Part shown: positions 17,163 to 33,572 of the stretch, piece by piece
Layout: every line of letters starts with the position of its first letter
How positions within the stretch are numbered: the first letter of the stretch is position 1
DNA from: Desulfomonile tiedjei DSM 6799
Lineage (GTDB): Bacteria > Desulfobacterota > Desulfomonilia > Desulfomonilales > Desulfomonilaceae
NCBI RefSeq assembly: GCF_000266945.1
Contig: NC_018025.1
Location: 2,666,001-2,730,000 of the forward strand
Reading direction: 5' to 3'
Length of the DNA: 64,000 bases
Program-made: the position numbers and the translations under genes
Notes under the pieces: model-generated
Told to the model about the DNA's origin: nothing
The model's database searches: none
Seen by the model: the letters and a program-made list of their open reading frames with translations, nothing else

Positions 17163-17462
17163 AAACATAAATGCAAAGAAGTATGGTCTGCTGAATACCT
17201 GACGATTTGTGGGAAACGAGGGCGTTTCTCGAGATTGGAGAATCATCCGCATGCCCTGGCGAAATTAGTCGCCTTGACTTCCACGGCGACCATGCCCTAT
17301 ATCCATTCCTTGGAGACTCTCAGGCAATAGAGTATGTTACTATAAGGTTCCCTTTATCGCGATGACCCAACTCGGGAGTTCAAATCGTACGGACTCGAGT
17401 CGGCCTGCTCGAAGATCTGCTGAAATTGAACAGGAGATCGACATTTGACTGAGGAACCGGTG

Positions 17463-19409
17463 ATGAACGAGAGTAAGAAGCCGAATGAACCGACAAAACT
17501 TGATGATTTCCAAATTCCATACGACGGAGCACAGTTTAACGTTCTTGAGTTATCATCGAGAGATGAACCGGAATGGTCGTGGGAGAGATTGCACCAATCC
17601 CGACAAATTTTGGATTCCTTGCCCATGGGAATCGGCTTGGTGGTTCACGGGAAATTATTGTTCTTAAATCGGCGAATGGCCGAAATCCTGGCTGATACTG
17701 GTGAATCCAATTTAGTCGGGCGAGACTTTCTTGGGTTCATCCCTCTGGGATGCCAGCAATTAGTGGCAAAATCTCTCAGAAACGCACTGGCTACATCCGC
17801 TTTGACTCCAGTGGGAGAAACGGATTTTATTCGGACCAATGGAAAACTCATTACAACGCACATGATCGTAAGGGCGATCAAGTTCGAGGAACAAGACGCA
17901 GTACTAGCCCTTCTTTCGGAGATTTCCCCCCTCCCTGCGATGCCTGCCTCCACGGAGGTTCCCTGGAAGGAAGCAGCAGATCCTCTTCAGGAAAATGCTC
18001 ACGAAACGACTGAGGCGGTCAGAGTTCTGCTCGAGAGAATAGACGACCTTACTCAGCAGTGCGAGAGCTTGCGCAGAAGAGGACAACTCATTGGCGCAAT
18101 CTTCGACGAAGCGCAGGATCTTGTCTTCAGCAAAGACATAAACCTCCGGTACACCTTTGTAAATCCTGCCATGCAGAAATTGCACGGACGCAGTGCGTCG
18201 GAGATTCTGGGGCTTTCTGCTGACGATCTGATGCCCGGAGAGGCCGGAAAACGTGTCAATGCCGTTGATGCCAGAGTGATTGCAGGTGAAACGGTCGAAG
18301 AGGTCTATACCACCCCCATACATGGAATCCCGCTGACTTTTCATGGGATCCGAGCACCGTTGAGGAATCCTGCAGGACACATCATTGGAATGTTCGGCAT
18401 CGTCAGGAACATTACAGACAATAAAGGGATCAGAAACCCCGAACTGTCTCCTGCGAAACGCAGCTATCCTTCCCGGGTCATGAAAGAAACATTGCTACAG
18501 GCGCAATCTGTTGCTGCCTCGGACGGTACAGTGCTCCTCTTGGGTGAGAGTGGGAGCGGAAAAGACTTCATGGCTAAATGGATTCACGACCATTCCAAAC
18601 GTGCGGACGGCCGTTTCTTTTCCATCAACTGCGCCGCCGTTTCCGGTGAACTTGCCGATTCCGAGTTGTTCGGTCATGAGGCAGGTGCCTTCACTGGAGC
18701 CCGTACGGCAAAAAAAGGTCTCCTGCAACTGGCTGAAGGCGGAACTTTGCTGCTCAACGAAATCGGCGAGTTTTCTCTGCCGCTCCAGGCAAAGCTTCTC
18801 ACCTTCTTGGACACGAAATCCTTTCTCCGAGTGGGTGGAGAACAAATTATTCACGTCAATGTTCGCATTATGGCCGCAACGCACAGGGTGTTGGCGAACG
18901 AAGTTGCCGAGGGTCGTTTTCTTGCGCCCTTGTTCTACCGGCTGAATGTCCTCAAACTCGACGTTCCTCCATTGCGGGAACGAGTGGAGGATATACCGAT
19001 CATCGCGCGAGAAATCATATCCTCACTGGCGAAAGAAATGCAGTTGAAGAGAGTGCCCGAATTTGACTCATCTTCTCTGTACGCTCTGGCGAATTATCAT
19101 TGGCCCGGAAATGTCCGCGAGTTAAAGAATGTGGTCGAGCGTGCTCTCATGCTCTGGAAAGGGGGCAGCCTTCGCATAGATACGCGCTCCTTGGACGTGA
19201 TTCCGGAACCGTGGTCCCATAAGGTGAATCTCGATGCCGACAGATCGCTTCATGAAGTCCTGGACGAAGTGGCCAGAGCCCTGTGTGTTGAATCCGTACG
19301 CAGATGCAATGGGAGCAAGACAAAGGCGGCTCGCATGTTGGGCATATCTCGCGGCGTCCTCTATCGCAGCATGAAACGGACGAATATGTCGCGCGATTTT
19401 GAAACATAA
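17463..19409 (+). CDS. PAS-PAS sigma-54-dependent transcription activator
   Basis: A 648-residue regulator. Two PAS domains cover about residues 40-165 and 205-320. The AAA+ domain (residues about 335-570) has Walker A GESGSGKD, the sigma-54 loop GAFTGA and Walker B GGTLLLNEIGE, with Asn in place of the more common Asp. The C-terminal Fis-type helix-turn-helix reads GSKTKAARMLGISRGVLY. ATG 17463 follows GAGGA. There is no receiver domain, so it should sense a ligand or redox state through PAS. A sigma-54 promoter about 200 bp downstream, ahead of the CoA-ligase gene series, marks it as that cluster's likely activator. Confidence 0.9.
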   Translation: MNESKKPNEPTKLDDFQIPYDGAQFNVLELSSRDEPEWSWERLHQSRQILDSLPMGIGLVVHGKLLFLNRRMAEILADTGESNLVGRDFLGFIPLGCQQLVAKSLRNALATSALTPVGETDFIRTNGKLITTHMIVRAIKFEEQDAVLALLSEISPLPAMPASTEVPWKEAADPLQENAHETTEAVRVLLERIDDLTQQCESLRRRGQLIGAIFDEAQDLVFSKDINLRYTFVNPAMQKLHGRSASEILGLSADDLMPGEAGKRVNAVDARVIAGETVEEVYTTPIHGIPLTFHGIRAPLRNPAGHIIGMFGIVRNITDNKGIRNPELSPAKRSYPSRVMKETLLQAQSVAASDGTVLLLGESGSGKDFMAKWIHDHSKRADGRFFSINCAAVSGELADSELFGHEAGAFTGARTAKKGLLQLAEGGTLLLNEIGEFSLPLQAKLLTFLDTKSFLRVGGEQIIHVNVRIMAATHRVLANEVAEGRFLAPLFYRLNVLKLDVPPLRERVEDIPIIAREIISSLAKEMQLKRVPEFDSSSLYALANYHWPGNVRELKNVVERALMLWKGGSLRIDTRSLDVIPEPWSHKVNLDADRSLHEVLDEVARALCVESVRRCNGSKTKAARMLGISRGVLYRSMKRTNMSRDFET

Positions 19410-19494
19410 TTTGTTCGGATCGCGCGCTTTTAGACCAATCGCTCTTAGGGGACCCCATGATATATCAATAGGTTACCCCTTGGCACTGTTTCAT

Positions 19495-19506
19495 ATTCGC
19501 GCGAAT
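19495..19506. promoter_or_regulatory. Palindrome, candidate upstream activator site for the cyclic-acid operon
   Basis: ATTCGC-GCGAAT is a perfect 12-bp palindrome. Its centre is about 135 bp upstream of the start point predicted from the sigma-54 promoter at 19610-19625, almost the same distance as the palindrome ahead of the PstS-like gene. The activator gene ends 85 bp away. Confidence 0.45.
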
Positions 19507-19609
19507 GGCCCCGTCAGATTCCTTCCACTTTTGTAAGCTAACCTTTAGAATTCAATAAATACACTGATTCCACCGCCTAAAACGCCACATTTCTTTGGCG
19601 AAACCACTT

Positions 19610-19625
19610 TGGCACGTTACATGCT
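19610..19625 (+). promoter_or_regulatory. Sigma-54 (-24/-12) promoter of the cyclic-acid degradation operon
   Basis: TGGCAC-gttac-ATGCT has a perfect -24 box and the essential GC at -12 with exact spacing; one base differs in the -12 box (A for T). The start point would be near 19636, giving a leader of about 120 nt before the old-yellow-enzyme gene. It lies between a sigma-54 activator and the catabolic genes. Confidence 0.65.
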
Positions 19626-19758
19626 AACCTGACCTCGAGAGTCCCTGCGAGCAGTCGATTCCCGTATCTGAACAAAACGTTTTCACGAATCAGCAGCACC
19701 CATTGCCAAGCAGATCTCGAAGTCTGCTCATCGGCAAATTTCCTGAGGAGCTTATTAC

Positions 19759-20889
19759 ATGAAACTTTTCGAAAACTATTCGCTCAAAGACAAGCTCACG
19801 TTGAACAATCGCATCATGATGCCGCCTGTTGTGACGAGACTGGCGACAAGCGAAGGTCATGTCACCGATGCATTGGTAGATCGGTACGTCCTCTATGCAA
19901 AGGGCGGAGCGGGTTTGGTAGTCACAGAAGCCGTTTCGGTGAAGAAGCAGAAAAGCGGTCAGCTTTTGCGACTCAATGATGACGAGTTCATACCTGGGCT
20001 GAAGAAGCTGACTCAAACCGTTCATGATGAATCGGAAGCCAAAATTGCTCCACAAATAATTCATTTCCTCAAAATCTCGCGAAGCGGATACCGGCAGAAG
20101 GTTGAAGATCTCACTCTCGAAGAGATCAAGGAAATTCCAACTCTCTTCGCCCAAGCGGCTGAAAGAGCCTGTAGAGCCGGTTTTGACGCTGTAGAGCTCC
20201 ACTTCGCACATTCCTACACAATGTCTTCTTTCCTGTCACGACATAATCACAGAACTGACGAGTACGGGGGATCCTTAAAGAAACGACTTCGTCTCGCCGA
20301 AGAGGTTGTCACTGCTTCCCGAAAGGCCGTTGGAGATAATTTCGTTTTGGGAGCTCGCATCAATGGAGACGAGTTCACGCTCGGGGGAAACAGCCTGGAG
20401 CAATCAAGCGCTATTGCTGTGCGTTTGGCAGAGCTCGGTCTTGATTACATAAGCGTCTCGGCTGGTGGAAAGTTCGAGGATGCAATTCCTAAAGAGGGCG
20501 AATCGCTCGATCCGTACACGGGATACAGCGGAAACAGGAGCATGCCGCCGAAATGGATGCCTGAAAAGGTCAATGTGTATCTGGCCGCAAATATCAAGAA
20601 GGCATTGATGGCCGCGGGATACGATACGACGGTCGTGACAGCCGGGAGAATTCCCACAGCTCAGATTGCAGAGGGCGTCCTTCAAAACGGCGAAGCAGAT
20701 CTGATCGCCATCGCTCGCCCGATTCTCTGCGATCCCTATTGGCCCAAGAAGTCAAAAGAAGGCCGCGAAGACGAGATCCTGAAATGCATCTACTGTAACA
20801 AATGCAGAGAGGCCGAAGGATCTTTCGAAGAAGTCACATGTATTCAGTGGAAGAAGAAAGATGGAATTGTTCAGATTCCGAAGAGCTGA
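19759..20889 (+). CDS. Old-yellow-enzyme family reductase with Fe-S motif (dienoyl-CoA-reductase-like barrel only)
   Basis: A 376-residue FMN TIM-barrel enzyme. The barrel shows the family features NRIMMPPV near the start, FDAVELHFAHSYTMSSFLS (active-site region) and NHRTDEYGGSLKKR. Near the C-terminus CIYCNKC plus a cysteine 12 residues later resembles the [4Fe-4S] site of 2,4-dienoyl-CoA reductases. Those enzymes continue for about 300 residues with an FAD/NAD(P)H domain that is absent here, so electrons must come from another protein. ATG 19759 follows GAGGAG. As first gene of the operon it probably reduces an unsaturated or enone ring acyl-CoA; the exact substrate is unknown. Confidence 0.8.
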   Translation: MKLFENYSLKDKLTLNNRIMMPPVVTRLATSEGHVTDALVDRYVLYAKGGAGLVVTEAVSVKKQKSGQLLRLNDDEFIPGLKKLTQTVHDESEAKIAPQIIHFLKISRSGYRQKVEDLTLEEIKEIPTLFAQAAERACRAGFDAVELHFAHSYTMSSFLSRHNHRTDEYGGSLKKRLRLAEEVVTASRKAVGDNFVLGARINGDEFTLGGNSLEQSSAIAVRLAELGLDYISVSAGGKFEDAIPKEGESLDPYTGYSGNRSMPPKWMPEKVNVYLAANIKKALMAAGYDTTVVTAGRIPTAQIAEGVLQNGEADLIAIARPILCDPYWPKKSKEGREDEILKCIYCNKCREAEGSFEEVTCIQWKKKDGIVQIPKS

Positions 20890-20936
20890 TGTGCCGTCGG
20901 GAACATCAAAACCTGTCATCATAAAGGGGGATTCTC

Positions 20937-22595
20937 ATGACGTTAGAGGGGTTTACACCGTACAAACCTGAAGCAGCCCAACTTTATGAAAAGAAGCGTT
21001 GGTGGCTGGGGCTGACCATGGGAGACGTGTTTGACAAAGCCTCTGATTTGTATCCCAACAAGGAAGCGCTGGTCGGTTCAGGGAAACGCTACACTTATGG
21101 CCAACTACGGCGGATCGTGGATCGCTTGGCTTACAGGTTCCACAAGGAGGGACTGAATAAAGGCGATACGGTTTTACTGCAACTTCCTAACTGGTCGGAA
21201 TTCTATCTGGCGTACTTTGCGGCACAAAAAGCCGGGCTCGTAGTGGTCTTGCTCACTGTTAACCACAATGCAAGAGAGATCTCTCACCTTGCCAATCTGA
21301 CACGGCCGAAAGGCTGGATTCTGCCCGCAGTCTATCGAAAGACAGACTTTCTCAAAGAAGTGAGGCAGGTCCAACAAACCAATCCTGATTTGAAAAAAGT
21401 GATTCTCGTGGGCGATAACGTACCGGAAGACTGTCTGTCTTTTGAAGAACTCCTGAAGACCGAAGGAGATGAGGACGAGATCCGGAAAATATTGGAAGCT
21501 TCTCGACCGGATCCTGGAGACGTCTTACAGATATTGCCGTCGGGAGGAACCACGGGACTCCCCAAAGGTGCACCAAGGACTCATAACGATTATTTATGTA
21601 ACGTGGAATATAAATCTCTGGCATGGGACTTAAACGTGAATGACATTTGCGGTGTGGTCAGTACTGTGGGCCATAATCTTGCGCTCTTGGTTTGTGTTAC
21701 CGCTCCTGTTCTTCACGGTGCCAAAGTAGTGATGATCGATTCCACTTACGGGGAAGACTTCTGCAAAGCTGTTGAGGAAGAAAAAATCACTGCTACTTGT
21801 GCAGTTCCTACCATTGTCAGCCGATTGGTCAATACCCCAAATATAGAAAAATACGATCTGAGCTCGCTCGAGAAGATGTATGTGGGCGCTGCACACAGTG
21901 CTCCAGAACTGGTAAAAAGCATCGAATCGAAACTCGGCTGCCGGTACGTCAATGCATTCGGCATGGTGGAAGGTCCCTGCTGTCAATCACGCCCTGACGA
22001 TCCTGAGGAGGTAACCCTCAACACAATAGGGCGGCCTATATGTCCATACGACGATTTTCGGACTTTAGACGTTGACGGGAAACCGACGCCGCGCGGTGTT
22101 GAAGGGGAATTGGCAGCAAAAGGACCGGGAATCTTTACAGGATATTTCAAGAATCCCCAGGCGAACGAAACCGCTTTCACTCCGGACGGCTATTTCCGTA
22201 CTGGAGACCTCGCTGTAATAGACCACAACGGCAATGTAAAAATAACCGGCAGAATAAAAGATGTCATTATAAGAGGCGGCGAAAATATCGCTGCGCAGGA
22301 AGTCGAGGAACTCATCTCTTCCCATCCTCTGGTAGTCCACGCGTCTGCCATCGGTATACCGCATGTGGACCTTGGAGAAGAGGTGTGCGCATTCGTAACA
22401 GTCGTAGAAGGAGCCCAAATAGGGGCACAAGATATACTTACCCATCTCGAGGCGGTAGGGGCTTCTAAGCTATTGCGCCCGGCACGAATTGAATTCGTGG
22501 ATCACATGCCCCTGACAGCCGCGGGGAAGATCGATAAAAAAGCACAAAGAAACGAAATGCAGGAAAAATTGAAAGCCGAACAAGGAATGAGTTAG
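20937..22595 (+). CDS. Acyl-CoA ligase for a cyclic acid (AMP-forming, AliA/EntE-like)
   Basis: A 552-residue ANL-superfamily enzyme. The adenylation P-loop is SGGTTGLPKGAPRTH (about residues 202-216); later come YFRTGDLAVID and GRIKDVIIRGGENI, and near the end the catalytic Lys in PLTAAGKIDKK. The overall form resembles 2,3-dihydroxybenzoate and cyclohexanecarboxylate ligases. It activates a carboxylic acid to its CoA thioester through an acyl-AMP. The ATG follows AAGGGGG. Its neighbours (BadH-like SDR, AliB-like dehydrogenase, AAHS transporter) point to an aromatic or alicyclic acid imported from outside. The precise acid cannot be told from sequence. Confidence 0.85.
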   Translation: MTLEGFTPYKPEAAQLYEKKRWWLGLTMGDVFDKASDLYPNKEALVGSGKRYTYGQLRRIVDRLAYRFHKEGLNKGDTVLLQLPNWSEFYLAYFAAQKAGLVVVLLTVNHNAREISHLANLTRPKGWILPAVYRKTDFLKEVRQVQQTNPDLKKVILVGDNVPEDCLSFEELLKTEGDEDEIRKILEASRPDPGDVLQILPSGGTTGLPKGAPRTHNDYLCNVEYKSLAWDLNVNDICGVVSTVGHNLALLVCVTAPVLHGAKVVMIDSTYGEDFCKAVEEEKITATCAVPTIVSRLVNTPNIEKYDLSSLEKMYVGAAHSAPELVKSIESKLGCRYVNAFGMVEGPCCQSRPDDPEEVTLNTIGRPICPYDDFRTLDVDGKPTPRGVEGELAAKGPGIFTGYFKNPQANETAFTPDGYFRTGDLAVIDHNGNVKITGRIKDVIIRGGENIAAQEVEELISSHPLVVHASAIGIPHVDLGEEVCAFVTVVEGAQIGAQDILTHLEAVGASKLLRPARIEFVDHMPLTAAGKIDKKAQRNEMQEKLKAEQGMS

Positions 22596-22647
22596 CTGGC
22601 GGTTGACTCGAGTTATTTTGTTCTCTCGATTAATAAGGAGATGAAAA

Positions 22648-23409
22648 ATGAGTTTAGGCGGTAAGAACGCAATCATCACAGGTGGTGCGAAAGGAATAGG
22701 AAAAGCTATCGGTATGAGGCTCGCATCTGATGGTGCGAACATTGGAATTCTTGACCTCGATAGAGATTTGGCAGAAGAGACTGCAAAAGAGATAAGGCAA
22801 AAAGGCGTGGAAGCGATGCCGATCAAATGCGACGTCACCGACTACGCACAGGTAAAACAGTCCGTCGAATCATTTGTTGCCAGATTTCAGACTATCGACA
22901 TTCTCATCAACAATGCTGGTATGGACAGATCTGCGTTTTTCATCGATACGGATCAAACCCTCTGGGACAAAATGATCAGCGTAAACTATAGAAGCTTCTT
23001 GAACGCTACTCATGTGTGTATCCCTTACATGATAGAGAAGCAAACAGGCAATATCGTCAGTCTTGGTTCAGACGCCGGCCGCGTAGGCAATAGTGGCGAA
23101 CTCGTGTACTGCGGCACCAAAGCTGCCTTGATGGCCAGTTCCAAGGCACTGGCGAGAGAAGTAGCAAGATTTAATATCAGAGTCAATTGCGTCGCACCCG
23201 GGCCCGTACAGACTGACTTGCTCCTCGGCCTGCATGAAGGGGAAAAAGGGAAGAAGATTATGGAGGCTGTCGCGAAGATGATCCCTATGAAGAGACTCGG
23301 ACTTCCTCAGGATGTTGCCGATGTCGTGGCTTTCTTCGTGAGTGATGACGCGAGATACTTGACCGGCCAGGTGCTAAGCGTGGACGGCGGTCTGACCATG
23401 ATTGGTTGA
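22648..23409 (+). CDS. Short-chain dehydrogenase, BadH-like (hydroxycyclohexane-carbonyl-CoA dehydrogenase)
   Basis: A 253-residue classical SDR. The NAD(P) site is TGGAKGIGKAIG at the N-terminus, with an Asp after the second strand (LDLDRD) that favours NAD. The active site is Ser plus YxxxK in SDAGRVGNSGELVYCGTK. The stretch SDAGRVG-SGE is close to what I recall of BadH, the 2-hydroxycyclohexanecarboxyl-CoA dehydrogenase of Rhodopseudomonas. It should oxidise a ring hydroxyl to the ketone, which in this cluster would give the substrate of BamA or a close relative. The ATG follows AAGGAG. Family is certain; the substrate is inferred from context. Confidence 0.82.
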   Translation: MSLGGKNAIITGGAKGIGKAIGMRLASDGANIGILDLDRDLAEETAKEIRQKGVEAMPIKCDVTDYAQVKQSVESFVARFQTIDILINNAGMDRSAFFIDTDQTLWDKMISVNYRSFLNATHVCIPYMIEKQTGNIVSLGSDAGRVGNSGELVYCGTKAALMASSKALAREVARFNIRVNCVAPGPVQTDLLLGLHEGEKGKKIMEAVAKMIPMKRLGLPQDVADVVAFFVSDDARYLTGQVLSVDGGLTMIG

Positions 23410-23430
23410 AATGGGAAAAGGAGCCAGATA

Positions 23431-24555
23431 ATGGATTTTACGCTTCCTGATCATATCCTCAAAATCAAGTACGAAACTCGAGAGTGGGTGGAGAATGTCC
23501 TGAATCCGCTGTCAGCTCCCCTCGAGGAAGAAGAGCGCATCCCGGAAGAACTCGTGGCAGAGCTGAAAAAGGGGCGTTTCTTCGGGCTGACCATACCCAA
23601 AGAGTACGGTGGACAAGGATGGTCGGTTGTAGAGTGGTTTACGGTTCTCGAAGAAATCGCCAAAGCCTATGCCACAGTACGACTTATCGCTCATTGTATG
23701 AATGGACTCTTCTGGAGACCGTTACAACAGTACGGCACTGAGGAGCAAAGAAGAAAATATTTGCCGAAACTGGCTACCGGCGAGATCTGGGCGGCAAATA
23801 CCCTTACGGAACCGGAGGCGGGCACTGGAAAAGACATTAACTCCAAGACAACCCGTGACGGCGACGACTACCTCATAAATGGCCGCAAGTGGCTCATCTC
23901 GACGTTTCCCGATCAAACGAAACTGCTTTATTCTTTTGCCGCTACAGAAGAGGGGATTACTTCGTTCCTCATCGATCTCCCCACAGAGGGTATCACGTTT
24001 GTGCCGATGGAAAAGATGATGGGATGCGTCGGACCTCGTCACTACAACGTCATTTACAAGGATTGCCGAGTCCCGGCCTCCAGTATTCTGGGAGAAAAAG
24101 GGAAGGGCTTGGACGTGGCATTCGGAATGCTTCACTTGAGCCGAGTGTCAATTGCTTTCGGTTGCATCGGTTTAGCTCAAAAAATGTTCGACCTCGCTGT
24201 AGCATACGCAAAGAAGAGGAGCACCTTCGGAAAACTCCTGGTTCAGCGTCAGGCTATTCAGAACAACGTTGCGCAGATGGCTACCGAAATTCAAGCTGCT
24301 CGAATGCTTGCCTATGAAGCTGCCTGGAGGTTCGATCAAGGACAAGATATTGTCACCAACGCAGCCATGGCAAAGATGTTTGCCGAGCAGGTGGTGACCC
24401 GTGTATCCGAAATGGCTTTGAGAATGCATGGAGGTGTGGGGTACACGAAAGCATATCCGCTGGAAAGACATTTCCGGGATTGCCGATCTTTTCATTTCGA
24501 GGAGGGCACTGAGGAAATTCAGAAACTACTCATAGCGAGAAAATTCCTTAAGTAG
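23431..24555 (+). CDS. Acyl-CoA dehydrogenase, AliB-like candidate
   Basis: A 374-residue flavoprotein with the three-part acyl-CoA dehydrogenase fold: N-terminal helices, beta domain (WAANTLTEPEAGTGKD, NGRKWLIS) and C-terminal helices (GGVGYTKAYPLERHFRDCR). The catalytic Glu is in FEEGTEEIQ near residue 363. It starts 21 bp after the SDR gene, with a GGAG site. In company with an AliA-like ligase and BadH-like SDR it most resembles AliB, which makes cyclohexene-carbonyl-CoA from the saturated ring ester. ETF would take the electrons; no etf gene is in the window. The substrate is inferred. Confidence 0.82.
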   Translation: MDFTLPDHILKIKYETREWVENVLNPLSAPLEEEERIPEELVAELKKGRFFGLTIPKEYGGQGWSVVEWFTVLEEIAKAYATVRLIAHCMNGLFWRPLQQYGTEEQRRKYLPKLATGEIWAANTLTEPEAGTGKDINSKTTRDGDDYLINGRKWLISTFPDQTKLLYSFAATEEGITSFLIDLPTEGITFVPMEKMMGCVGPRHYNVIYKDCRVPASSILGEKGKGLDVAFGMLHLSRVSIAFGCIGLAQKMFDLAVAYAKKRSTFGKLLVQRQAIQNNVAQMATEIQAARMLAYEAAWRFDQGQDIVTNAAMAKMFAEQVVTRVSEMALRMHGGVGYTKAYPLERHFRDCRSFHFEEGTEEIQKLLIARKFLK

Positions 24556-24743
24556 GCAATCACGTTCTTAACAAAGCAGCGGAATTGCCTCAGGACATGG
24601 GCCCATAGGTGGACGGTTCTTCCGACGATAGTGATGGTCGTGACGGAAGAGCGTTCCCTATGGCGACCATGATAAGACATGGCCGCCGGTTCGAACGTGA
24701 TTGCTGCACAGCCGGCCCAACCTGGATGTGTTAGGAGGTGGGT

Positions 24744-26087
24744 ATGCGAACGATTCAGGTAAATAAGATGATTGATGAGAGCAAGTACAACAGCTTTCAT
24801 CTCTCAGTGCTTATACTCTGTCTTTTCGTTATCATCAGTGACGGATATGATTTGGTCGTTTATGGCACAATCGTTCCGGCCCTTATGAAGGACTGGAGCT
24901 TAACACCCATTCAAGCTGGCATGATAGGTAGTTACGCCATGGTCGGCATGCTGTTGGGTGCCTTGATATTCGGTCCATTGGCGGACCGAGTTGGCAGAAA
25001 AGCAGTCATCCTGGTCTGTCTTGCTCTTTTTGGCACCTTCACCGGAACCGTAGGTTTTGCGCGAGACGCTACCGAATTCGGAATTTATCGATTCATTGCC
25101 GGACTGGGGCTGGGCGGTGTCATGCCGAACTGTATCTCACTCGTCACGGAATACATGCCCAGGAAGGTGCGAAGCACGATGGTGGCTATCATGTTCTGCG
25201 GAATGCAGATCGGGTCCATAGCTGCTGCAGGCCTAGGCATCTTCCTCATTCCTGCCTACGGCTGGAAGATAATGTTCTGGTTGGGTGCACTGCCTCTGCT
25301 CTTGATACCCTTTCTTTGGGCCTATCTTCCGGAGTCCCTCGATTTCTATATGAAACGCAATCAAATGGATAAGCTTGCGCATGTAGTAAAGTCCTCAGTG
25401 CCGGAATTTGAGCCGAAGCCAGACGATGTGTACGATTTAGCCACTGTTAAAATCCATAAGATACCGGTGGTCAACCTGTTTGAAGAGGGGCGTGCTTTCA
25501 GCACTATCATGTTCTGGATTGCGTATGTTTGTAATCTTCTCATTATCTACGCAATAGCGGTTTGGTTGCCAAAACTGATGCAGAATGCCGGCTATTCCAT
25601 GGGCTCGAGCCTCTGGTTCCTGGTTGTGAGCAATATGGGAGCAGTAGTCGGAGCCGTTTCAGGATCATGGCTCTCTGACAAAGTTGATGGCAAGAAGATT
25701 TTGGTTACCTACTTCTTCCTGGCGTTTGTATCCATAAATCTCTTGGCCTTGAATGTGAACTTTGTGTTACTGTCCATCTTTGTAGCAATATCCGGAGCCA
25801 CCACCATGGGAACGCAAATAGCTGCCAATGCATATGTTTCTCAGTATTATCCGCTGAGTATGCGTTCAAGCGGTATCGGTTGGGCACTTGGCATAGGGCG
25901 TTTCGGAGCAGTGATCGGACCCACCATGGGAGGTTTCCTGCTTGCTATGAACCTGTCACTCGCCATGAACTTCTTCGTGTTCGCTGTTCCGGGACTGATT
26001 GCTTCCGCTGCCATGGCATTAGTGCAAAGAAGATATGGTTACACATGGAATCAGAGACAAGCTGCCAACATGGAGAAGGTAGCCTAG
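24744..26087 (+). CDS. MFS transporter, aromatic acid:H+ symporter (AAHS) family
   Basis: A 447-residue, 12-helix inner-membrane carrier. The AAHS signature DGYDLVVYG is in helix 1, and the loop between helices 2 and 3 has GPLADRVGRKAVIL, a standard MFS motif A. Known members (PcaK, BenK, and shikimate or hydroxyphenylpropionate carriers) import aromatic or ring acids with protons. ATG 24744 follows AGGAGG; a GTG two codons earlier overlaps that site. Placed between the ligase group and bamA, it probably brings in the acid that the ligase activates. Domain and motif evidence is strong; the solute is not known. Confidence 0.9.
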   Translation: MRTIQVNKMIDESKYNSFHLSVLILCLFVIISDGYDLVVYGTIVPALMKDWSLTPIQAGMIGSYAMVGMLLGALIFGPLADRVGRKAVILVCLALFGTFTGTVGFARDATEFGIYRFIAGLGLGGVMPNCISLVTEYMPRKVRSTMVAIMFCGMQIGSIAAAGLGIFLIPAYGWKIMFWLGALPLLLIPFLWAYLPESLDFYMKRNQMDKLAHVVKSSVPEFEPKPDDVYDLATVKIHKIPVVNLFEEGRAFSTIMFWIAYVCNLLIIYAIAVWLPKLMQNAGYSMGSSLWFLVVSNMGAVVGAVSGSWLSDKVDGKKILVTYFFLAFVSINLLALNVNFVLLSIFVAISGATTMGTQIAANAYVSQYYPLSMRSSGIGWALGIGRFGAVIGPTMGGFLLAMNLSLAMNFFVFAVPGLIASAAMALVQRRYGYTWNQRQAANMEKVA

Positions 26088-26234
26088 TCTCACGTGTCGT
26101 GAAACGGTCATGGTTGTAAGACAATGACAACAACTATAATGATTTGACTCTTTGAGCGGCTTCTCTGCCCCGGTTACAACTGCCATGAAAGGGAGACTGG
26201 GTAGGGAAGCCGTATTCAGCATAGGAGGTCGTGT

Positions 26235-27365
26235 ATGTCGTTGGAATGGTTACCAAGGGATAACAACTGCAGAGATCATATCCTCTTGGGGTCTGAGCAT
26301 TGGGGAACCGATGCTCCTTGTACAGTATACGAAAAAAAACCTTTAGTCTCTCCGGACGGGAAACAGATTGACGGACTGTATGTTGCCTGGATCCGCCTGA
26401 ACAATCCGAAGCAGTACAATTCCTACACAACCGAAATGGTCAAAGGAGTGATTGCCGGATTTTTCGCGGCAAGCCAAGATCGTTCAGTTGTTGCCGCGGT
26501 CTTCACCGGTACCGGGGATACAGCCTTCTGTTCTGGGGGAAACACCAGAGAGTATGCAGAATACTATTCCATGCGTCCCAATGAATATGGCGAGTACATG
26601 GACCTGTTCAATGGAATGGTTGACGCTATTCTTAACTGCAAAAAGCCGGTGATTTGCCGAGTGAACGGGTTGAGGGTCGCCGGTGGTCAGGAAATCGGAA
26701 TGGCTTGCGACTTGGCCATTTCAAGTGATCTGGCCGTTTACGGCCAGGCCGGACCCCGGCATGGTTCCAGTCCCGATGGTGGTGCTACCGATTTTCTTCC
26801 CTGGTATCTGTCCATGGAAGATGCAATGTGGAATTGCGTGAGTTGCGAAATGTGGAGCGCCTACAAAATGAAGGCAAAAAATCTCATTTCCAAGGCGATT
26901 CCTGTTCTCAAACAAGGGGATAAGTTCATTCGGAATCCCCTCGTAATCACCGATTCCTATGTGCAAGATGGCGAGATCGTCTACGGCGAATTCAAGACCG
27001 GGGCTGCAGCAGAAGAAGCCAAGAAAATGATGAAGGAGCTTCCTCGAGACTTTGAGTTGGTCGACAAGGAAGTAAACAGGATAGTATGGACTTTTGCCAA
27101 TCTCTTTCCCGGTTGTCTGATCAAGGCTATCGATGGAATCCGAGCCAAGAAGAAGTTCTTCTGGGATCAAACCAAACTCTGCAACCGGCATTGGCTGATG
27201 ACTAACATGAGTTACGAAGCGTACCTGGGCTTCAATGCTTTCAATGCTAAGAAGATCTCGGGTCGGGATACTATAGATTTCATCAAATGGCGCCAACGTA
27301 TCGCGGAAGCAGCTTCCATGACACCGGAAGTCTTCTCCGAAGTACTGGGAGAGCCTCAAAAATAA
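26235..27365 (+). CDS. bamA: 6-oxocyclohex-1-ene-1-carbonyl-CoA hydrolase (BamA)
   Basis: A 376-residue crotonase-superfamily enzyme of the length typical for BamA/Oah. Recognisable stretches are NPKQYNSYTTEMVKG, the oxyanion-hole region NGLRVAGGQEIGMACD, and SSDLAVYGQAGPRHGS followed by PDGGATDFLPWYL, all characteristic of BamA. It adds water to 6-oxocyclohex-1-ene-1-carbonyl-CoA and opens the ring to 3-hydroxypimelyl-CoA, the last ring step of anaerobic benzoyl-CoA breakdown. The ATG follows TAGGAGGT. No benzoyl-CoA reductase (bamB-I) or dienoyl-CoA hydratase gene is nearby, so here bamA may serve a side route or the upper steps lie elsewhere. Confidence 0.9.
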   Translation: MSLEWLPRDNNCRDHILLGSEHWGTDAPCTVYEKKPLVSPDGKQIDGLYVAWIRLNNPKQYNSYTTEMVKGVIAGFFAASQDRSVVAAVFTGTGDTAFCSGGNTREYAEYYSMRPNEYGEYMDLFNGMVDAILNCKKPVICRVNGLRVAGGQEIGMACDLAISSDLAVYGQAGPRHGSSPDGGATDFLPWYLSMEDAMWNCVSCEMWSAYKMKAKNLISKAIPVLKQGDKFIRNPLVITDSYVQDGEIVYGEFKTGAAAEEAKKMMKELPRDFELVDKEVNRIVWTFANLFPGCLIKAIDGIRAKKKFFWDQTKLCNRHWLMTNMSYEAYLGFNAFNAKKISGRDTIDFIKWRQRIAEAASMTPEVFSEVLGEPQK

Positions 27366-27434
27366 GCATTGGCAAGTTGTCTTGTTTCACGTTTCCAGGA
27401 TAACCTGAGAACGAAAAATGATAAAGAGCGTTGC

Positions 27435-27468: not shown

Positions 27469-27492
27469 ACCGTCTCCATATAGGAGGATTAC

Positions 27493-28647
27493 ATGGCCAA
27501 GGTCGCAGTAATTGGCGTCGGCCAAAGTGAGTTTGTTCGATCCTACCCGGGGTCGATACGAGAACTGGCCTTTGAGGCCTATAGAGATGCCATGAAGGAT
27601 GCGGCAATCAACTCAGAGCAAATCGATGCAACCGTAATCTGTTCCGCTCCCGAATACGATAAGCAGAGAACACCCGCAGGCCTTATGGCGGAGTACCTGG
27701 GACTCAATCCCCAACCGACGTTCTACGTAGAAAGCGTATGCTCATCAAGTTCCAGCGGGCTCAGAACAGCATACGCACTTATTGCCTCCGGGCTTCACGA
27801 TATAGTGGTGGTGTTGGGCTTTCAGAAAATGTCAGAAATCACCTCTGCAGATTCTCAGGAGAGAATGGGGCGAGGGGCTGATATTCAATGGGAAGCTCCT
27901 TTTGGAACAATGATGCCGGCCTACTATGCACTGTACGCGAGAGGACATTTTGAGAAGTACGGCACAACAGAGGAAGATCTTGCTTTGATTCGGGTCAAGT
28001 CTTCCACGTACGGCAGGATAAACGATAAAGCGGTTTTCAGAAAACCCCTGACCTTAGAAAAGGTCCTCGAGCCCAATTACATTGCTACTCCCTTGAAAGT
28101 GTTTGATTGTTGCGCGAATGCGGATGGATCTTCATGTATCATACTTGCCTCTGAGGAAAAGGCAAAAAGCCTCTGCAAAAAGCCTGTGTGGATAAAAGGG
28201 CTTGGAATGGCCACCGCCCCTATAACCATGACGGAAAGAGATACTTTCAGCGGACTAAGATGTGCACAATTGGCTGCAAAACGTGCTTACCAGATGGCCG
28301 GCATAACACCCGGCGATGTGGATGTGGCCGAGGTGCATGATTGTTTCACGATAGCGGAGATGATGGCTTATGAAGACCTTGGATTCGCCGAACCCGGCAA
28401 AGGCAAGGATCTTATCCGAAACAAAGAAACTTATAAGGAAGGGAAAATACCGGTCAATGTGGATGGTGGCTTGCTGTCGAAAGGGCACCCCATAGGGGCT
28501 ACCGGCGGTTCGCAGATTCGCACCATTGTCTTGCAGTTAAGAAGTGAAGCGGGTGAAATGCAGGTTCCGAACGCCAAGATCGGTTTAGTCCATAATATCG
28601 GAGGAGTCGGAATCTACGGTAATGTGAGTATATTCGGGGTCGAGTGA
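27493..28647 (+). CDS. SCP-x-type thiolase
   Basis: A 384-residue thiolase-fold protein of the non-specific lipid-transfer/SCP-x branch. The nucleophile Cys is in VESVCSSSSSGL (near residue 83); the His residues are in AEVHDCFT and in GHPIGATGG. It would cleave a 3-oxoacyl-CoA, for example 3-oxopimelyl-CoA after ring opening. The next gene encodes the zinc/OB-fold (DUF35) partner that this thiolase branch usually needs, with only 17 bp between stop and start. ATG 27493 follows AGGAGG. The catalytic residues look complete. Confidence 0.87.
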   Translation: MAKVAVIGVGQSEFVRSYPGSIRELAFEAYRDAMKDAAINSEQIDATVICSAPEYDKQRTPAGLMAEYLGLNPQPTFYVESVCSSSSSGLRTAYALIASGLHDIVVVLGFQKMSEITSADSQERMGRGADIQWEAPFGTMMPAYYALYARGHFEKYGTTEEDLALIRVKSSTYGRINDKAVFRKPLTLEKVLEPNYIATPLKVFDCCANADGSSCIILASEEKAKSLCKKPVWIKGLGMATAPITMTERDTFSGLRCAQLAAKRAYQMAGITPGDVDVAEVHDCFTIAEMMAYEDLGFAEPGKGKDLIRNKETYKEGKIPVNVDGGLLSKGHPIGATGGSQIRTIVLQLRSEAGEMQVPNAKIGLVHNIGGVGIYGNVSIFGVE

Positions 28648-28664
28648 CATTCCTGGAGGAAAAG

Positions 28665-29078
28665 ATGGGTTTCGAGCAGTTCGGCATTATAAGTTTTACT
28701 GGCGTAACGAAGGTTGATGAGTTTGTGGGGTACCTCAAGGATCAGGAAATACGCGGCACCTTGTGCATGCGATGCGGTACCAGATTCTTTCCACCTCGCA
28801 GCGATTGCGATGTTTGCCTTAGCAGCATCATGCAATGGTTCCCCATCACCGGCGAAGGGACTGTCATCACGTATACGAAGGCGATGTACGCTCCTGCGGG
28901 ATTTGAAAAAGACGTCCCATACGTACTCGCTGTTGCAGAGTTTTCCGATGGGGTCAAAGTATTCGGTCGAATGGATCGTACTATTCCGGAAGACCGAATC
29001 AAAGCGGGCATGAAGGTGAAAACACGCGTAACGAATCTTGAAAACGATCGCTTCACATATGAATTTGTCGTCAACTAG
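28665..29078 (+). CDS. Zinc-ribbon/OB-fold (DUF35) partner of the thiolase
   Basis: A 137-residue protein. Residues about 30-55 form a rubredoxin-like zinc ribbon (CMRCGTRFFPPRSDCDVC), and residues 60-137 an OB fold. Proteins of this family bind acyl-CoA and assemble with SCP-x or HMG-CoA-synthase-like thiolases. The ATG at 28665 follows GGAGG; the longer frame starting at 28644 overlaps the thiolase stop and lacks a ribosome site. The tight spacing to the thiolase gene supports a heteromeric complex. Confidence 0.87.
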   Translation: MGFEQFGIISFTGVTKVDEFVGYLKDQEIRGTLCMRCGTRFFPPRSDCDVCLSSIMQWFPITGEGTVITYTKAMYAPAGFEKDVPYVLAVAEFSDGVKVFGRMDRTIPEDRIKAGMKVKTRVTNLENDRFTYEFVVN

Positions 29079-29680: not shown

Positions 29681-30853
29681 ATGAGCGACGAGTACGATGT
29701 GGAGTTGTCTGAAGAGCATATAATGCTCCGAGATATGGTTCGTAAATTCGCGGATAACGAAGTAGCACCTGTTGTCGATAAAGATGAGAACGATCACCGT
29801 TTCCAGCGTGAACTGGTGAACCAGATGGCTGAATTGGGTCTTTTTGGCTGCCCGGTCCCTGAACAATACGGCGGCAATAACATGGGCTATCTGGCGCACG
29901 CGATAGCCACCGAAGAGATCGGTAGGGTCTCGGGATCGCTCAGGGTCGCTTTCAACATGCAGACGATGGGCACTTCGATGTCCATTTTGAAATGGGGAAG
30001 TGATGAGTTAAAACAAAAATATATTCCAGCTCTTGTTTCCGCTGAAATTCTCGGTTGTTTCGGTATCACCGAGCCTGATTCGGGATCCGATACCGCAGCC
30101 ATGGCTACCACGGCAGAGAGGGATGGAAACGAGTACGTGCTAAACGGCCGGAAGATGTGGATCACCTGGTGCCCGGTCGCTGATATGGCCGTCATCTTTG
30201 CCATGACTGACAAAAAGGCCAAACACAGAGGTATGAGCGTCTTTGTCATGGATATGGATTCTCCGGGTGTCTCCACCATAGCCACGAAAGACAAACTCGG
30301 TCTTTGGGCTTGCCCCACCGGCGAAATCATCATGGAAGACGTGAGAATCCCTGCTGGTAACCGCCTTGGCGAAGAAGGCAAAGGATTCGGTTATCTCATG
30401 CAGGAGCTTATAAGCACGAGGCTTTCTGCAGCGGCAGGCGCAGTGGGCACTTGCCAGGCAGCTCTAGACGAATCAGTCAAATATGCAACCGAACGGCGAC
30501 AATTCGGCCAATCCATAGCCGAATTCCAGATGGTCCAGGAAGTCATAGCAAGGATGGTTGCTGAAACCGAAGCTGCTCGGGCGCTTGTCTGGCGATGCGC
30601 AATTCAGAAGGATCGCGGGCTTGTGCACAACATGCGAGAGACCGTGCTCGCAAAGTATTATGCATGTCGAGCGGCTGATGAAGTACCCAACCTCGCTCTC
30701 GAAGTGTTGAGTGCATATGGATATTCCAATGAATATCCCATAGCCAGAATCCTTCGTGACGGAAAAGTGTACAAGATTCTCGAAGGCGCTACCAACATTA
30801 TGAAGATGATAATCGCCCAGGACGCTCTGGGCCTCAAAAAGGCGAACAGATAG
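29681..30853 (+). CDS. Glutaryl-CoA dehydrogenase, probably non-decarboxylating
   Basis: A 390-residue acyl-CoA dehydrogenase. It resembles the non-decarboxylating glutaryl-CoA dehydrogenase known from Desulfococcus: FNMQTMGTSMSIL-like N-terminal region, CFGITEPDSGSDTAAM, YGYSNEYPIARILRD, and an end reading NIMKMIIAQDALGLKKANR. The catalytic Glu is in ILEGATNIM. Such enzymes stop at glutaconyl-CoA and leave decarboxylation to a biotin enzyme. That fits the biotin carrier and GcdA genes just downstream. The ATG follows AAGGAG. The non-decarboxylating call is from family resemblance plus context, not from a residue test. Confidence 0.83.
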   Translation: MSDEYDVELSEEHIMLRDMVRKFADNEVAPVVDKDENDHRFQRELVNQMAELGLFGCPVPEQYGGNNMGYLAHAIATEEIGRVSGSLRVAFNMQTMGTSMSILKWGSDELKQKYIPALVSAEILGCFGITEPDSGSDTAAMATTAERDGNEYVLNGRKMWITWCPVADMAVIFAMTDKKAKHRGMSVFVMDMDSPGVSTIATKDKLGLWACPTGEIIMEDVRIPAGNRLGEEGKGFGYLMQELISTRLSAAAGAVGTCQAALDESVKYATERRQFGQSIAEFQMVQEVIARMVAETEAARALVWRCAIQKDRGLVHNMRETVLAKYYACRAADEVPNLALEVLSAYGYSNEYPIARILRDGKVYKILEGATNIMKMIIAQDALGLKKANR

Positions 30854-31372: not shown

Positions 31373-31585
31373 ATGGCGGAAATCACCATGCCCATGAACG
31401 GCAAGGTTATCGCGATAACGACCGAAGTGGGCGAGGGCGTCTCGGAAGATGCCGAGCTGGTCATTATAGAGGCAATGAAGATGGAATTGCCTGTGGTCGC
31501 CACCCATGATGGAACAGTAAAAGAAATCAAGGCCAAAGTTGGCGAGTCATATAACGTCGGGGACGTTTTGCTCATAATAGAGTAA
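31373..31585 (+). CDS. Stand-alone biotin carrier protein
   Basis: A 70-residue single biotinyl domain. The biotin-accepting Lys is in EAMKMEL (about residue 35), and the flanking PMNGKV and VGDVLLIIE strands are standard. Unlike GcdC-type subunits there is no Ala/Pro-rich linker or membrane anchor; the whole protein is the domain. It should carry the carboxyl group taken from glutaconyl-CoA by GcdA, the next gene. ATG 31373 follows AGGAGG. Confidence 0.9.
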   Translation: MAEITMPMNGKVIAITTEVGEGVSEDAELVIIEAMKMELPVVATHDGTVKEIKAKVGESYNVGDVLLIIE

Positions 31586-31838
31586 GAATTTCTGTCAGAT
31601 TGCTGTGGAAGAAGAAGGAAGCGTTATTTCGACCTTTGGACATTCCATCGGCTTTTCACGCAATTTTCAAATGCCGAGAATATGAGGCTGATTAAACCTG
31701 GAGATGCACGAAGTTGCCCGCAGGAAGGGGACAAGGATTGTCCCTCAATCCATGAACAATGGCTACCGTGCCTCTATAGCCGAAGAAGATCAAATCTACT
31801 CCGTTGAAGTGAGAATGTTCGACGGAGGGAGGAAAACA

Positions 31839-33572
31839 ATGAGACCATACTTCGAAAGCATGGCAAAGATCGGAAAACCGCTCAGCCAGGCTAGAATCAA
31901 GAATACGCAAGAAAACGTCGAACAGATCAGGGCAATAGAACAGGAATTGGCAGCAGCCATAGAAGACGTCAAGAATGCCGGAATTCCTGCAAAGAAGATC
32001 AATGAAAGAGGACAACTCACTGTTTGGCAACGCCTCGAATACCTGGTTGACCCTGGAACCTGGTGCCCCTTGCACTCAATATTCAATCCCAAGAACAACG
32101 AAGAAGGGACTACCGGCGTCGTCAACGGTTTAGGCAAGATAAATGGCAAATGGGCGGTTATCATAGGCTTTGACAACAAGGTGATAGCCGGCGCATGGAT
32201 CTCTGGTCAGTCGGAGAACATCCTCAGAGTCACCGACATGGCGAAGCGCCTTCGTATTCCTCTGGTTTGGCTGGTGAACTGCTCAGGCGTGAAACTCACC
32301 GAACAGGAAGAAGTCTATCCGGATCGAAGGGGTGGAGGAACCCCGTTTTTCCGCCACGCAGAATTGGAACAGCTCGGGATTCCCGTCCTGGCAGGGATTT
32401 GGGGAACCAATCCTGCGGGTGGTGGTTACCAGGGCATCAGCCCCACGATCCTCCTCGCGCATAAAGACTGCAATATAGCTGTAGGTGGAGGAGGAATAGT
32501 CAGCGGGATGACCCCGAAAGGGTACTTCGATGAAGAAGGAGCTGAACAACTCATCGAAGCGACAAGGCATTTCACCGAACTTCCCCCGGGGAGCGTTCAG
32601 GTCCATTATGATAGCACGGGCTTTTTCAAGGCGGTGTTCGAGACTGAAGAAGCTGTTCTCGATGCACTCAAGGGCTATATGGACATGATCCCTGCTTACG
32701 ACCCGAAGTTTTTCCGTGTGGCAGAGCCGGCGGAACCTCAATTCGGCAAAGAGGATCTGAACCACATCATCCCCGTGAACCAGAAATCGGTGTACGCCTT
32801 TGATGAAGTGCTCGCACGACTCACCGACAACAGCGAGCACATGGAGTACAAACCGCAGTACGGTCCGGAAGTGTACACAGGATTGGTCAAACTGAACGGA
32901 TTCCTGGTCGGAGTCATCGGCAACAAGCAGGGATTTCTCGGGGCAGGATATCCGGAATATGCGCCATATCCCGGCATTGGAGGCAAGCTGTACAGGCAAG
33001 GGCTCATCAAAATGAATGAGTTCGTTACTTTGTGCGGCAGAGATCGACTCCCCATAATTTGGTTCCAGGATACGTCGGGGATAGACGTGGGTGACATCGC
33101 GGAGAAGGCTGAGCTTCTCGGACTGGGGCAGTCGCTCATCTACTCTATTGAACAAACCGATGTTCCCATGATGCTCTTCGTGCTTCGTAAGGGAACTGCT
33201 GCCGCCCACTATATTATGGGCGGGCCGACAGCGAACAATCATACCGCTTTTGCACTGGGTACTCCTGCCACCGAGATTTACGTCATGCATGGTGAGACCG
33301 CCTCAGCCGCATCTTTTGCCAGACGCCTCGTGAAAGAAAAGGACGCAGGTAGACCCCTACAGCCGATCATTGACAAGATGAACGCTCTTGCCAAGCAATA
33401 TTCCGATCAGTCCAAACCAATCTATTGCGCCAAGAGAGGATTCGTGGACGAGGTGGTTTCTTTTACCGAGATGCGCAAATACATGCTCGCATTCGCAGAG
33501 TGCGCATACCAGAATCCCGGCTCGATTTGTCCTCATCACATGATGATGATTCCGAGGATAGCAAAAGGATAA
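31839..33572 (+). CDS. gcdA: Glutaconyl-CoA decarboxylase alpha subunit (carboxyltransferase)
   Basis: A 577-residue carboxyltransferase. The start at 31839 (MRPYFESMAKIGKPL) follows GGAGGGAGG and matches the start of known GcdA proteins; a frame 45 codons longer has no ribosome site. Two crotonase-like halves are visible: GIWGTNPAGGGYQGISPT and VGGGGIVSGMTPKGYF, then IWFQDTSGIDVGD and RKGTAAAHYIMGGP. It moves CO2 from glutaconyl-CoA to biotin, giving crotonyl-CoA. In fermenters the sodium-pumping beta subunit (GcdB) releases the CO2; no gcdB lies in this window. A strong terminator follows, closing the cluster. Confidence 0.93.
   Translation: MRPYFESMAKIGKPLSQARIKNTQENVEQIRAIEQELAAAIEDVKNAGIPAKKINERGQLTVWQRLEYLVDPGTWCPLHSIFNPKNNEEGTTGVVNGLGKINGKWAVIIGFDNKVIAGAWISGQSENILRVTDMAKRLRIPLVWLVNCSGVKLTEQEEVYPDRRGGGTPFFRHAELEQLGIPVLAGIWGTNPAGGGYQGISPTILLAHKDCNIAVGGGGIVSGMTPKGYFDEEGAEQLIEATRHFTELPPGSVQVHYDSTGFFKAVFETEEAVLDALKGYMDMIPAYDPKFFRVAEPAEPQFGKEDLNHIIPVNQKSVYAFDEVLARLTDNSEHMEYKPQYGPEVYTGLVKLNGFLVGVIGNKQGFLGAGYPEYAPYPGIGGKLYRQGLIKMNEFVTLCGRDRLPIIWFQDTSGIDVGDIAEKAELLGLGQSLIYSIEQTDVPMMLFVLRKGTAAAHYIMGGPTANNHTAFALGTPATEIYVMHGETASAASFARRLVKEKDAGRPLQPIIDKMNALAKQYSDQSKPIYCAKRGFVDEVVSFTEMRKYMLAFAECAYQNPGSICPHHMMMIPRIAKG

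Follow-up and report, generated by a model that had tools for sequence, protein, structure and literature searches.

We describe in Desulfomonile tiedjei DSM 6799 a short old yellow enzyme (OYE) homologue with four C-terminal cysteines that, judged with about even confidence from its sequence and gene context, would be an ATP-independent, probably ferredoxin-driven ortho-hydroxybenzoyl-CoA reductase. It is predicted to carry two cofactors, FMN and a [4Fe-4S] cluster, and its substrate would most likely be 2-hydroxybenzoyl-CoA (salicyl-CoA). The gene lies in a stretch of 64,000 nucleotides of contig NC_018025.1 (the window, to which all coordinates without a locus number refer). From strand and spacing we infer that the genes between 17445 and 33572 form one operon, with the following features.

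17445..19409, + strand: PAS-domain sigma-54-dependent activator, likely the operon regulator (Pfam PAS_4, Sigma54_activat and HTH_8; role from position)
19610..19625, + strand: putative sigma-54 promoter site (differs from the consensus at one position)
19759..20889, + strand: short four-cysteine OYE homologue, the subject of this report (open reading frame, Pfam, alignment)
20200..20217, + strand: codons H148-F-A-H151-S-Y153, by analogy the likely substrate-oxygen-binding and proton-donating site (alignment)
20785..20841, + strand: codons C343 to C361, the putative ligands of a [4Fe-4S] cluster (all four cysteines unchanged throughout the 12 aligned sequences)
20937..22595, + strand: CoA ligase of the DHB/salicylate-AMP ligase type, with the conserved HN pair (DhbE H234-N235) (NCBIfam, structure matches, alignment)
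22648..23409, + strand: SDR (best NCBIfam match BadH, 260.6 bits, cut-off 431.2)
23431..24555, + strand: acyl-CoA dehydrogenase ACD1 (Pfam, NCBIfam)
24738..26087, + strand: MFS transporter, aromatic acid:H+ symport type (TIGR00895, 385 bits, cut-off 418.55)
26235..27365, + strand: 6-oxocyclohex-1-ene-1-carbonyl-CoA hydrolase, Oah (TIGR03200, 544.6 bits, above the cut-off of 464.45)
27493..28647, + strand: thiolase (NF004720, 439 bits, above the cut-off of 420)
28644..29078, + strand: DUF35/ChsH2-type OB-fold partner of the thiolase (profile search)
29681..30853, + strand: acyl-CoA dehydrogenase ACD2, glutaryl-CoA dehydrogenase type (NF045552, 461.1 bits, slightly below the cut-off of 470)
31373..31585, + strand: biotin carrier protein (PF00364)
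31704..33572, + strand: carboxyltransferase, candidate glutaconyl-CoA decarboxylase subunit (PF01039; putative role)

A complete OYE gene ending after four cysteines

The reading frame runs from an ATG at 19759 to a stop at 20887-20889 and encodes 376 amino acids; the next ATG (20937) follows 47 bp after the stop, so the clean ending described in the initial annotation is borne out. The only Pfam match is Oxidored_FMN (PF00724), at 176.1 bits against a curated cut-off of 27, with nothing C-terminal of the barrel. The cysteines near the end had been described as a CxxCNxC-x12-C-like set; all four are present, but the last spacing is x11 (C343-x2-C346-x2-C349-x11-C361). The protein continues for 33 residues after C343 and 15 after C361, in agreement with a stop reported about 30 residues beyond the cysteines. 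It has the make-up by which we recognise a short four-cysteine OYE, namely the barrel and a C-x2/3-C-x2/3-C-x8-16-C set with the end soon after. Its six closest homologues (L006, L007, L012/L041, L013/L042, L014/L043 and L112) are 65-79% identical to it, and in all seven proteins the cysteine set is complete and 11-15 residues follow its last member. On this shared ending we reject a frameshift or pseudogene for the window gene; the initial annotation had likewise seen no obvious frameshift.

The H148-x2-H151-x-Y153 motif and the four cysteines are common to all 12 aligned members of a wider clade, in which A150 is invariant along with H148, H151 and Y153. In YqjM-type OYEs, the His pair holds the carbonyl or phenolic oxygen of the substrate and the Tyr gives a proton. 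The best NCBIfam match is BaiCD (NF041087), at 220.5 bits far under the cut-off of 825, which places the protein outside that family. Because of the motif and this best match, the barrel is better called 'enone type' from its sequence; the earlier description as a dienoyl-CoA-reductase barrel was right as to the OYE fold and less apt as to the subtype.

An AlphaFold model built from a six-sequence alignment has a mean pLDDT of 79.2, with values mostly below 50 in the tail (344-376) and in a loop (237-261); it is unreliable in these stretches and therefore no guide to the cluster geometry. Among the matches listed, VIA-align places an ordinary OYE (8pun; Z 39.5, rmsd 2.3, 307 residues) and 2-naphthoyl-CoA reductase (6qkg; Z 39.1, rmsd 2.9, 342 residues) in a tie, followed by DCR (1ps9; Z 37.1, rmsd 3.4, 327 residues).

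No pyridine-nucleotide-disulfide-type FAD/NAD(P)H domain was found among the 38 window proteins given to Pfam, a subset of the window's open reading frames, and a separately encoded partner nearby was rejected on this search. An FAD-linked oxidase of a different fold is encoded at 3546-4934. The region 843-7807, which encodes a TRAP-type DctP protein, a CCG/Fer4 protein, an FAD-linked oxidase, an FCD-GntR regulator and an L-lactate permease, is probably a lactate or glycolate utilisation locus. On the other side of the operon, 42306-51417 encodes an RND efflux pump with a membrane-fusion protein, and a protein in which a protein kinase domain is followed by an FGE-sulfatase domain.

The short form is common

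The homologue survey that the initial annotation had called for found short four-cysteine OYEs widely in a sample of the phylum. A match at 1e-30 was present in 209 of 395 genomes drawn. Twenty rows were chosen by hand from among the open frames of 359-501 amino acids, and all 20 carry the four cysteines and end 12-53 residues later. A tree of 59 OYE rows, a sample enriched for short forms by choice, comprises 38 short four-cysteine sequences, 17 long ones and 4 in neither group; twice-fetched loci (L011, L041-L045, L047 and L048), repeated sequences and pieces under 330 amino acids were dropped, and one long piece of the broken L017 was retained as 'noFeS'. On the best tree, the switch between short and long forms has to occur four times (bootstrap 3-5); strongly supported branches force only one such change, so that a single origin of the short form is possible. 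The D. tiedjei genome itself (6,527,027 bases, two contigs) encodes five OYEs: L002 and L004 are long with Fe-S cysteines, L001 lacks these cysteines, and L003 joins the window OYE as a second short four-cysteine protein. The truncation, put forward initially as unusual, is therefore conserved yet ordinary rather than rare, and we do not count it as the novelty. Searches for further homologues matched 1 of 5 genomes in the order of G047 and 1 of 21 in the order of G172, both previously in the set, and 2 of 299 in the class of L007's genome, one of them new (G603/L112).

The operon and its ligase

The operon may serve to convert an aromatic acid to crotonyl-CoA. Its putative sigma-54 site ends 133 bp before the OYE ATG; the window has two such sites where chance alone would give 1.82, and this one is suggestive through its position only. 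ACD1 matches cyclohexanecarbonyl-CoA dehydrogenase models at 206 bits (cut-off 650). Benzoyl-CoA reductase, Dch and Had are absent from the annotated genes at 17445-33572, as are ferredoxin and ETF genes, and a search of the window at 1e-6 gave no monooxygenase match.

The ligase gives a clue to the substrate. All of the 13 solved structures that it matches best are aryl-AMP ligases acting on 2,3-dihydroxybenzoate or salicylate (among them 3o82, BasE), and it scores higher with the DHB-AMP ligase model (380.6 bits) than with the cyclohexanecarboxylate-CoA ligase model (277.6 bits), both under cut-off. In DhbE, N235 is described as binding the 2-hydroxyl and S240 the 3-hydroxyl (PMC11253843). 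The window ligase keeps the HN pair that includes the N235 equivalent and has Val at the place of S240. The pair is also kept in the other five of six aligned ligases of the DHB/salicylate type (window, L006, L007, L041, L042 and L048) and in the DHB-type ligase of L043; it is missing from two other CoA ligases (L008 and L071), the only contrast used. Since HN is kept and Val replaces S240, the analogy points to an ortho-hydroxybenzoate without a 3-hydroxyl as the ligase substrate. We found no report in the literature of D. tiedjei growing on salicylate.

A proposed route to the Oah substrate

The initial annotation had suggested that ferredoxin or ETF supplies the electrons and that a ring acyl-CoA or enone is reduced. 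A ferredoxin-like one-electron donor and a substrate of this kind would fit the operon, the four intact cysteines and the absent NAD(P)H domain, and the neighbouring genes led us to the sharper hypothesis of ortho-hydroxybenzoyl-CoA and Oah. In what follows, the cofactors, donor, substrate, reaction and every functional step are predictions from the observed genes, families, conservation and synteny.

The transporter would import the acid and the ligase would form its CoA thioester. H148 and H151 would then hold the ring oxygen and favour the keto form, so that the ring would behave as a dienone. A one-electron donor, probably reduced ferredoxin, would charge the FMN via the cluster; because this donor is proposed to dock at the cluster, an NAD(P)H/FAD domain would be needless. 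Hydride from FMN and a proton from Y153 would yield 6-oxocyclohex-1-ene-1-carbonyl-CoA, and the co-encoded Oah would open its ring to 3-hydroxypimelyl-CoA. Oxidation (perhaps by the SDR) and the action of the thiolase, the glutaryl-CoA dehydrogenase and the decarboxylase would complete a route that bypasses benzoyl-CoA reductase, Dch and Had. By atom count, 2-hydroxybenzoyl-CoA plus 2[H] is, after tautomerisation, isomeric with the Oah substrate.

We roughly estimate the potential of the 2-hydroxybenzoyl-CoA step at about -0.43 V, possibly off by 0.1 V, from the -622 mV given for benzoyl-CoA reduction (PMC6502838) and background values for dehydroxylation and alcohol oxidation. A couple at this estimated potential would be too low for NADH under usual conditions and reachable by ferredoxin, which would explain both a dispensable NAD(P)H/FAD part and a retained cluster.

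Gene neighbourhoods of the anaerobe-type relatives

Gene lists for the related loci were made with a simple longest-ORF script, which misses genes beneath antisense ORFs, and similarity searches were run too. Genes for the OYE, ligase, SDR and ACD1 occur together in six of the seven members of the clade, counting the window, although the contig of L006 ends within ACD1; the exception, L043, instead encodes two ligases along with proteins of the Rid family and the MaoC type. In four of the seven, PpsB-like, amidohydrolase, HAD and unknown genes precede the OYE in varying order. An amidohydrolase of the ortho-benzoate decarboxylase superfamily lies near the OYE in four of the seven, and also in L044 and L047 of the second anaerobe-type clade described below. 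Its best match is ACMSD, followed by 5-carboxyvanillate, gamma-resorcylate, 2,3-DHB and salicylate decarboxylases, and the superfamily is described as known for ortho-carboxylation of phenols (PMC6644310).

Genes of the PpsB-like, amidohydrolase_2, HAD and unknown 'U212' kinds were noted near the OYE at L006:4272-7989, L007:4496-7987, L041:10126-13137, L042:10117-13578 and L047:6144-11510, with a PpsA-like gene additionally in L042 and L047; the U212 protein of L006 matched no Pfam or NCBIfam family at 0.001. The set is a candidate for phosphate-activated ortho-carboxylation of phenols.

A second anaerobe-type clade (about 50% identical) has five intact members and two with internal TAA stops (one in L017/L046 and three in L020/L050), for which a pseudogene, an assembly error and unusual decoding are all candidate explanations. 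Among its seven loci, a ligase was matched in four, an amidohydrolase in two, an SDR weakly in one (L050) and ACD1 in none. Aldehyde:ferredoxin oxidoreductase genes adjoin two of its OYEs (L044:1624-3480 and L047:3842-6092), a hint at the electron donor, and a small ferredoxin-like ORF, recognised by eye, lies just upstream of the OYE in L047. Across the 14 loci of the two clades, which are of unequal length, no monooxygenase match was found at 1e-6.

Placement of Oah and competing explanations

A second Oah, 81% identical to that of the window, is encoded elsewhere in the D. tiedjei genome. Beside it are a BzdQ subunit that exceeds its cut-off, an ORF that looks like a ferredoxin by eye and a gene that resembles Dch without reaching the cut-off (245 bits against 292.5), neighbours from which the window Oah appears to be a second copy; no catalytic BCR subunits were identified in the stretch around this other Oah. 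In nine other OYE-carrying genomes with Oah, the gene lies beside Had-like (by eye) or Dch-like ORFs in seven and near the OYE in none, so that the linkage is seen in the window only. Oah at 1e-60 was absent from 3 of 13 OYE-carrying genomes, that of L008 included. A search of the D. tiedjei genome for an AmH-type amidohydrolase, run without a positive control, gave no match.

The confinement of the Oah-OYE linkage to the window counts against the salicyl-CoA reductase reading. Its main weakness is that the conserved SDR and ACD1 have no obligatory place before Oah. The second anaerobe-type clade also speaks against it, with no SDR or ACD1 relatives beyond the one weak match and with three of seven loci devoid of a ligase, and the operon supplies no carrier gene of the ferredoxin or ETF kind. 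The N235 argument, moreover, is an analogy with AMP ligases that has two CoA ligases as its contrast. It is because of the poorly fitting SDR and ACD1, the placement of Oah elsewhere and the absent carrier gene that we regard this reading as evenly balanced between right and wrong.

The best of the alternatives, which we consider unlikely, gives the SDR and ACD1, the conserved partners, a job: the OYE would reduce ortho-hydroxybenzoyl-CoA, the SDR would reduce the ketone, a crotonase would remove water and ACD1 would re-aromatise the ring, delivering benzoyl-CoA to the BCR pathway. The other clade-A genomes with Oah are consistent with such a dehydroxylation, since Oah stands beside Had- or Dch-like ORFs in three of five (L067, L071 and L073; not L066 or L072), as in the classical pathway, and Azoarcus evansii is described as converting anthranilate anaerobically to benzoyl-CoA (PMC4539516). 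However, Oah is the sole crotonase of the window operon, and the operon's second Oah, thiolase and glutaryl-CoA genes would be redundant.

A substrate with two hydroxyls (2,6-, 2,5- or 2,4-dihydroxybenzoate) seems to us rather improbable. Here, the OYE would reduce an easily tautomerised ring, the SDR would reduce one ketone to a beta-hydroxy group and Oah would cleave 2-hydroxy-6-oxocyclohexanecarbonyl-CoA or its dehydrated form. Resorcinol-type rings are easier to reduce, a BadH-like SDR suits a ring beta-ketone, and gamma-resorcylate and 2,3-DHB decarboxylases are among the enzymes that the relatives' linked amidohydrolases resemble. Yet the Val at the S240 place speaks against a 3-hydroxyl, there is no direct pointer to a second hydroxyl, and ACD1 is left unexplained. 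The salicyl-CoA reading and these two alternatives all begin with the reduction of an ortho-substituted benzoyl-CoA.

In an alicyclic route, the ligase would activate a cyclohexane(ene)carboxylate, ACD1 and the SDR would act as in the Bad route, and the OYE would interconvert 2-oxocyclohexanecarbonyl-CoA and 6-oxocyclohex-1-ene-1-carbonyl-CoA. The BadH-like SDR, the cyclohexanecarbonyl-CoA dehydrogenase matches of ACD1 and the presence of Oah in the operon all suit this scheme, but the ligase is closer to the DHB-AMP model than to the cyclohexanecarboxylate-CoA model and keeps N235, the relatives adjoin aromatic genes and a low-potential Fe-S cluster would be needless; we find it about as improbable as the dihydroxybenzoate reading. 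Least probable is a generic ene-reductase or detoxifying OYE that takes NAD(P)H directly, as barrel-only OYEs such as YqjM do, with cysteines that are structural or bind another metal: the Blastocatellia relatives L113-L117 persist without the second cysteine, as this would allow, but the gene is the first after the regulator in a catabolic operon, its synteny is conserved and its four cysteines are invariant in the 12 aligned members.

Blastocatellia relatives and ACMR

In the class of L008's genome, Blastocatellia, 52 of 162 genomes were matched (53 rows) and six loci were examined. In a chosen set of 39 rows, the Blastocatellia OYEs form one group (98/96) that stands beside the window's clade at 91/89, below the star threshold of the tool. 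All six loci are tryptophan-to-anthranilate clusters with genes resembling Trp dioxygenase and kynureninase (family-checked in L008 only), and the substrate of these OYEs is therefore probably 2-aminobenzoyl-CoA. L008 has its four cysteines intact. In the other five (L113, L114, L115, L116 and L117), the second Fe-S cysteine is replaced by Gly or Thr, in L113-L115 by Gly, and the other three are kept. In L008 (8001-9422), L113, L114 and L115, the cysteines are followed by a C-terminal extension of about 110 residues that looks fibronectin-type-like by eye; that of L008 has no Pfam match.

A separate monooxygenase is encoded in the L116 and L117 loci, and that of L116 matches the N-terminal half of salicylyl-CoA 5-hydroxylase/oxidoreductase (471 bits over 1-385). 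These two loci (L116:5559-8493; L117, OYE at 6405-7889) encode the FAD monooxygenase and the OYE as distinct proteins within Trp-to-anthranilate clusters and appear to represent a split form of 2-aminobenzoyl-CoA monooxygenase/reductase. The pattern of an intact cluster where there is no oxygenase is imperfect, since the cysteine set of L113-L115 is incomplete although that monooxygenase is missing from their surroundings; one gene of L114 weakly resembles PaaA (54.9 bits against 280).

The known enzyme, ACMR (PRK08255, 2-aminobenzoyl-CoA/salicylyl-CoA monooxygenase-reductase), is described as aerobic and bifunctional, making 2-amino-5-oxocyclohex-1-ene-1-carbonyl-CoA (PMC4539516, PMC3534580). 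Like the enzyme proposed here, it has an OYE-type domain for an ortho-substituted benzoyl-CoA, with SDR, ECH, ACD and ligase genes alongside in two operons (plasmid records). It differs in its fused FAD monooxygenase and aerobic action, in lacking the Fe-S cysteines in two examples, and in an OYE domain that is not a near relative. The window OYE scores 154.5 bits against 1078 with NF006101 and has no fused monooxygenase, and so falls outside ACMR. The tree gives no support to shared ancestry with the ACMR reductase domain, and a long-branch join of ACMR with L001 makes the place of ACMR unsure. The similarity of ACD1 and SDR to their counterparts in the ACMR and Blastocatellia clusters (29-37%) does not go beyond the superfamily level, whereas ECH and ACD of the Blastocatellia are closer to the proteins of the ACMR operon (42-56%). 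Together, these systems suggest an ortho-substituted benzoyl-CoA as the common thread.

Relation to known reductases and significance

By sequence and cut-offs, the window OYE is a member of the OYE family and of the loosely defined short four-cysteine set, and lies outside BilR, BaiCD and ACMR. The short form of BilR, a published precedent for a barrel-only enzyme, also has an OYE barrel without the FAD/NADPH domain and is accompanied by BilS, described as a flavodoxin-like protein in its own right that probably transfers electrons; the term 'Fe-S' is absent from the text of that paper (PMC10769871). The window OYE differs from BilR in lacking the HGDR motif, in scoring 163.9 bits with NF045592 against a cut-off of 425, and in gene context.

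With 2-naphthoyl-CoA reductase (NCR) and other type III aryl-CoA reductases, the window OYE would share ATP-independent, low-potential reduction of an aryl-CoA by a [4Fe-4S] OYE, in its own case as a prediction. NCR is described as depending on one-electron donors of low potential, not NAD(P)H, to reduce its aryl-CoA (a couple of -493 mV), and as using FAD and [4Fe-4S] (PMC6502838). NCR, AprD and AprE differ in combining FMN, FAD and the cluster and in acting on polycyclic rings, AprD and AprE at about 73 kDa (PMC6502838, PMC13365417). The window OYE departs from this architecture of FMN, [4Fe-4S] and FAD domain, the 15 residues after C361 leaving no room for an FAD domain, and may nevertheless act like the type III enzymes.

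The truncation is ordinary, and it is the predicted role that would be new. Class I and class II benzoyl-CoA reductases dearomatise benzoyl-CoA and lead to the Oah substrate, and they require Dch and Had. They are proteins unrelated to the window OYE and are driven by ATP or bifurcation, and anaerobic dearomatisation of a single benzene ring is described as needing one or the other (PMC6502838); OYE-type enzymes are described as known only for polycyclic rings (PMC13365417). No paper naming a salicyl-CoA reductase in its title or at the start of its abstract was found, in a search of mainly open-access papers.

A wider scenario, which we offer tentatively and hold to be possible rather than probable, is that a monocyclic aryl-CoA reductase can be built from no more than an OYE barrel and a single [4Fe-4S] cluster, ferredoxin-driven and ATP-free, converting ortho-hydroxybenzoyl-CoA directly to the Oah substrate. 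The relatives' amidohydrolase and phenylphosphate-synthase-like genes would then belong to an anaerobic phenol route via ortho-carboxylation, and the Blastocatellia would hold an aerobic sister version, with the cluster mostly decayed and a separate monooxygenase added in some.

If the proposed function is correct, a barrel and a cluster would suffice to reduce a monocyclic ring that bears a hydroxyl, and the enzyme would represent an aryl-CoA reductase in minimal form. A sulfate reducer would thereby spare ATP, and the purpose of the FAD domain in NCR would become easier to understand.
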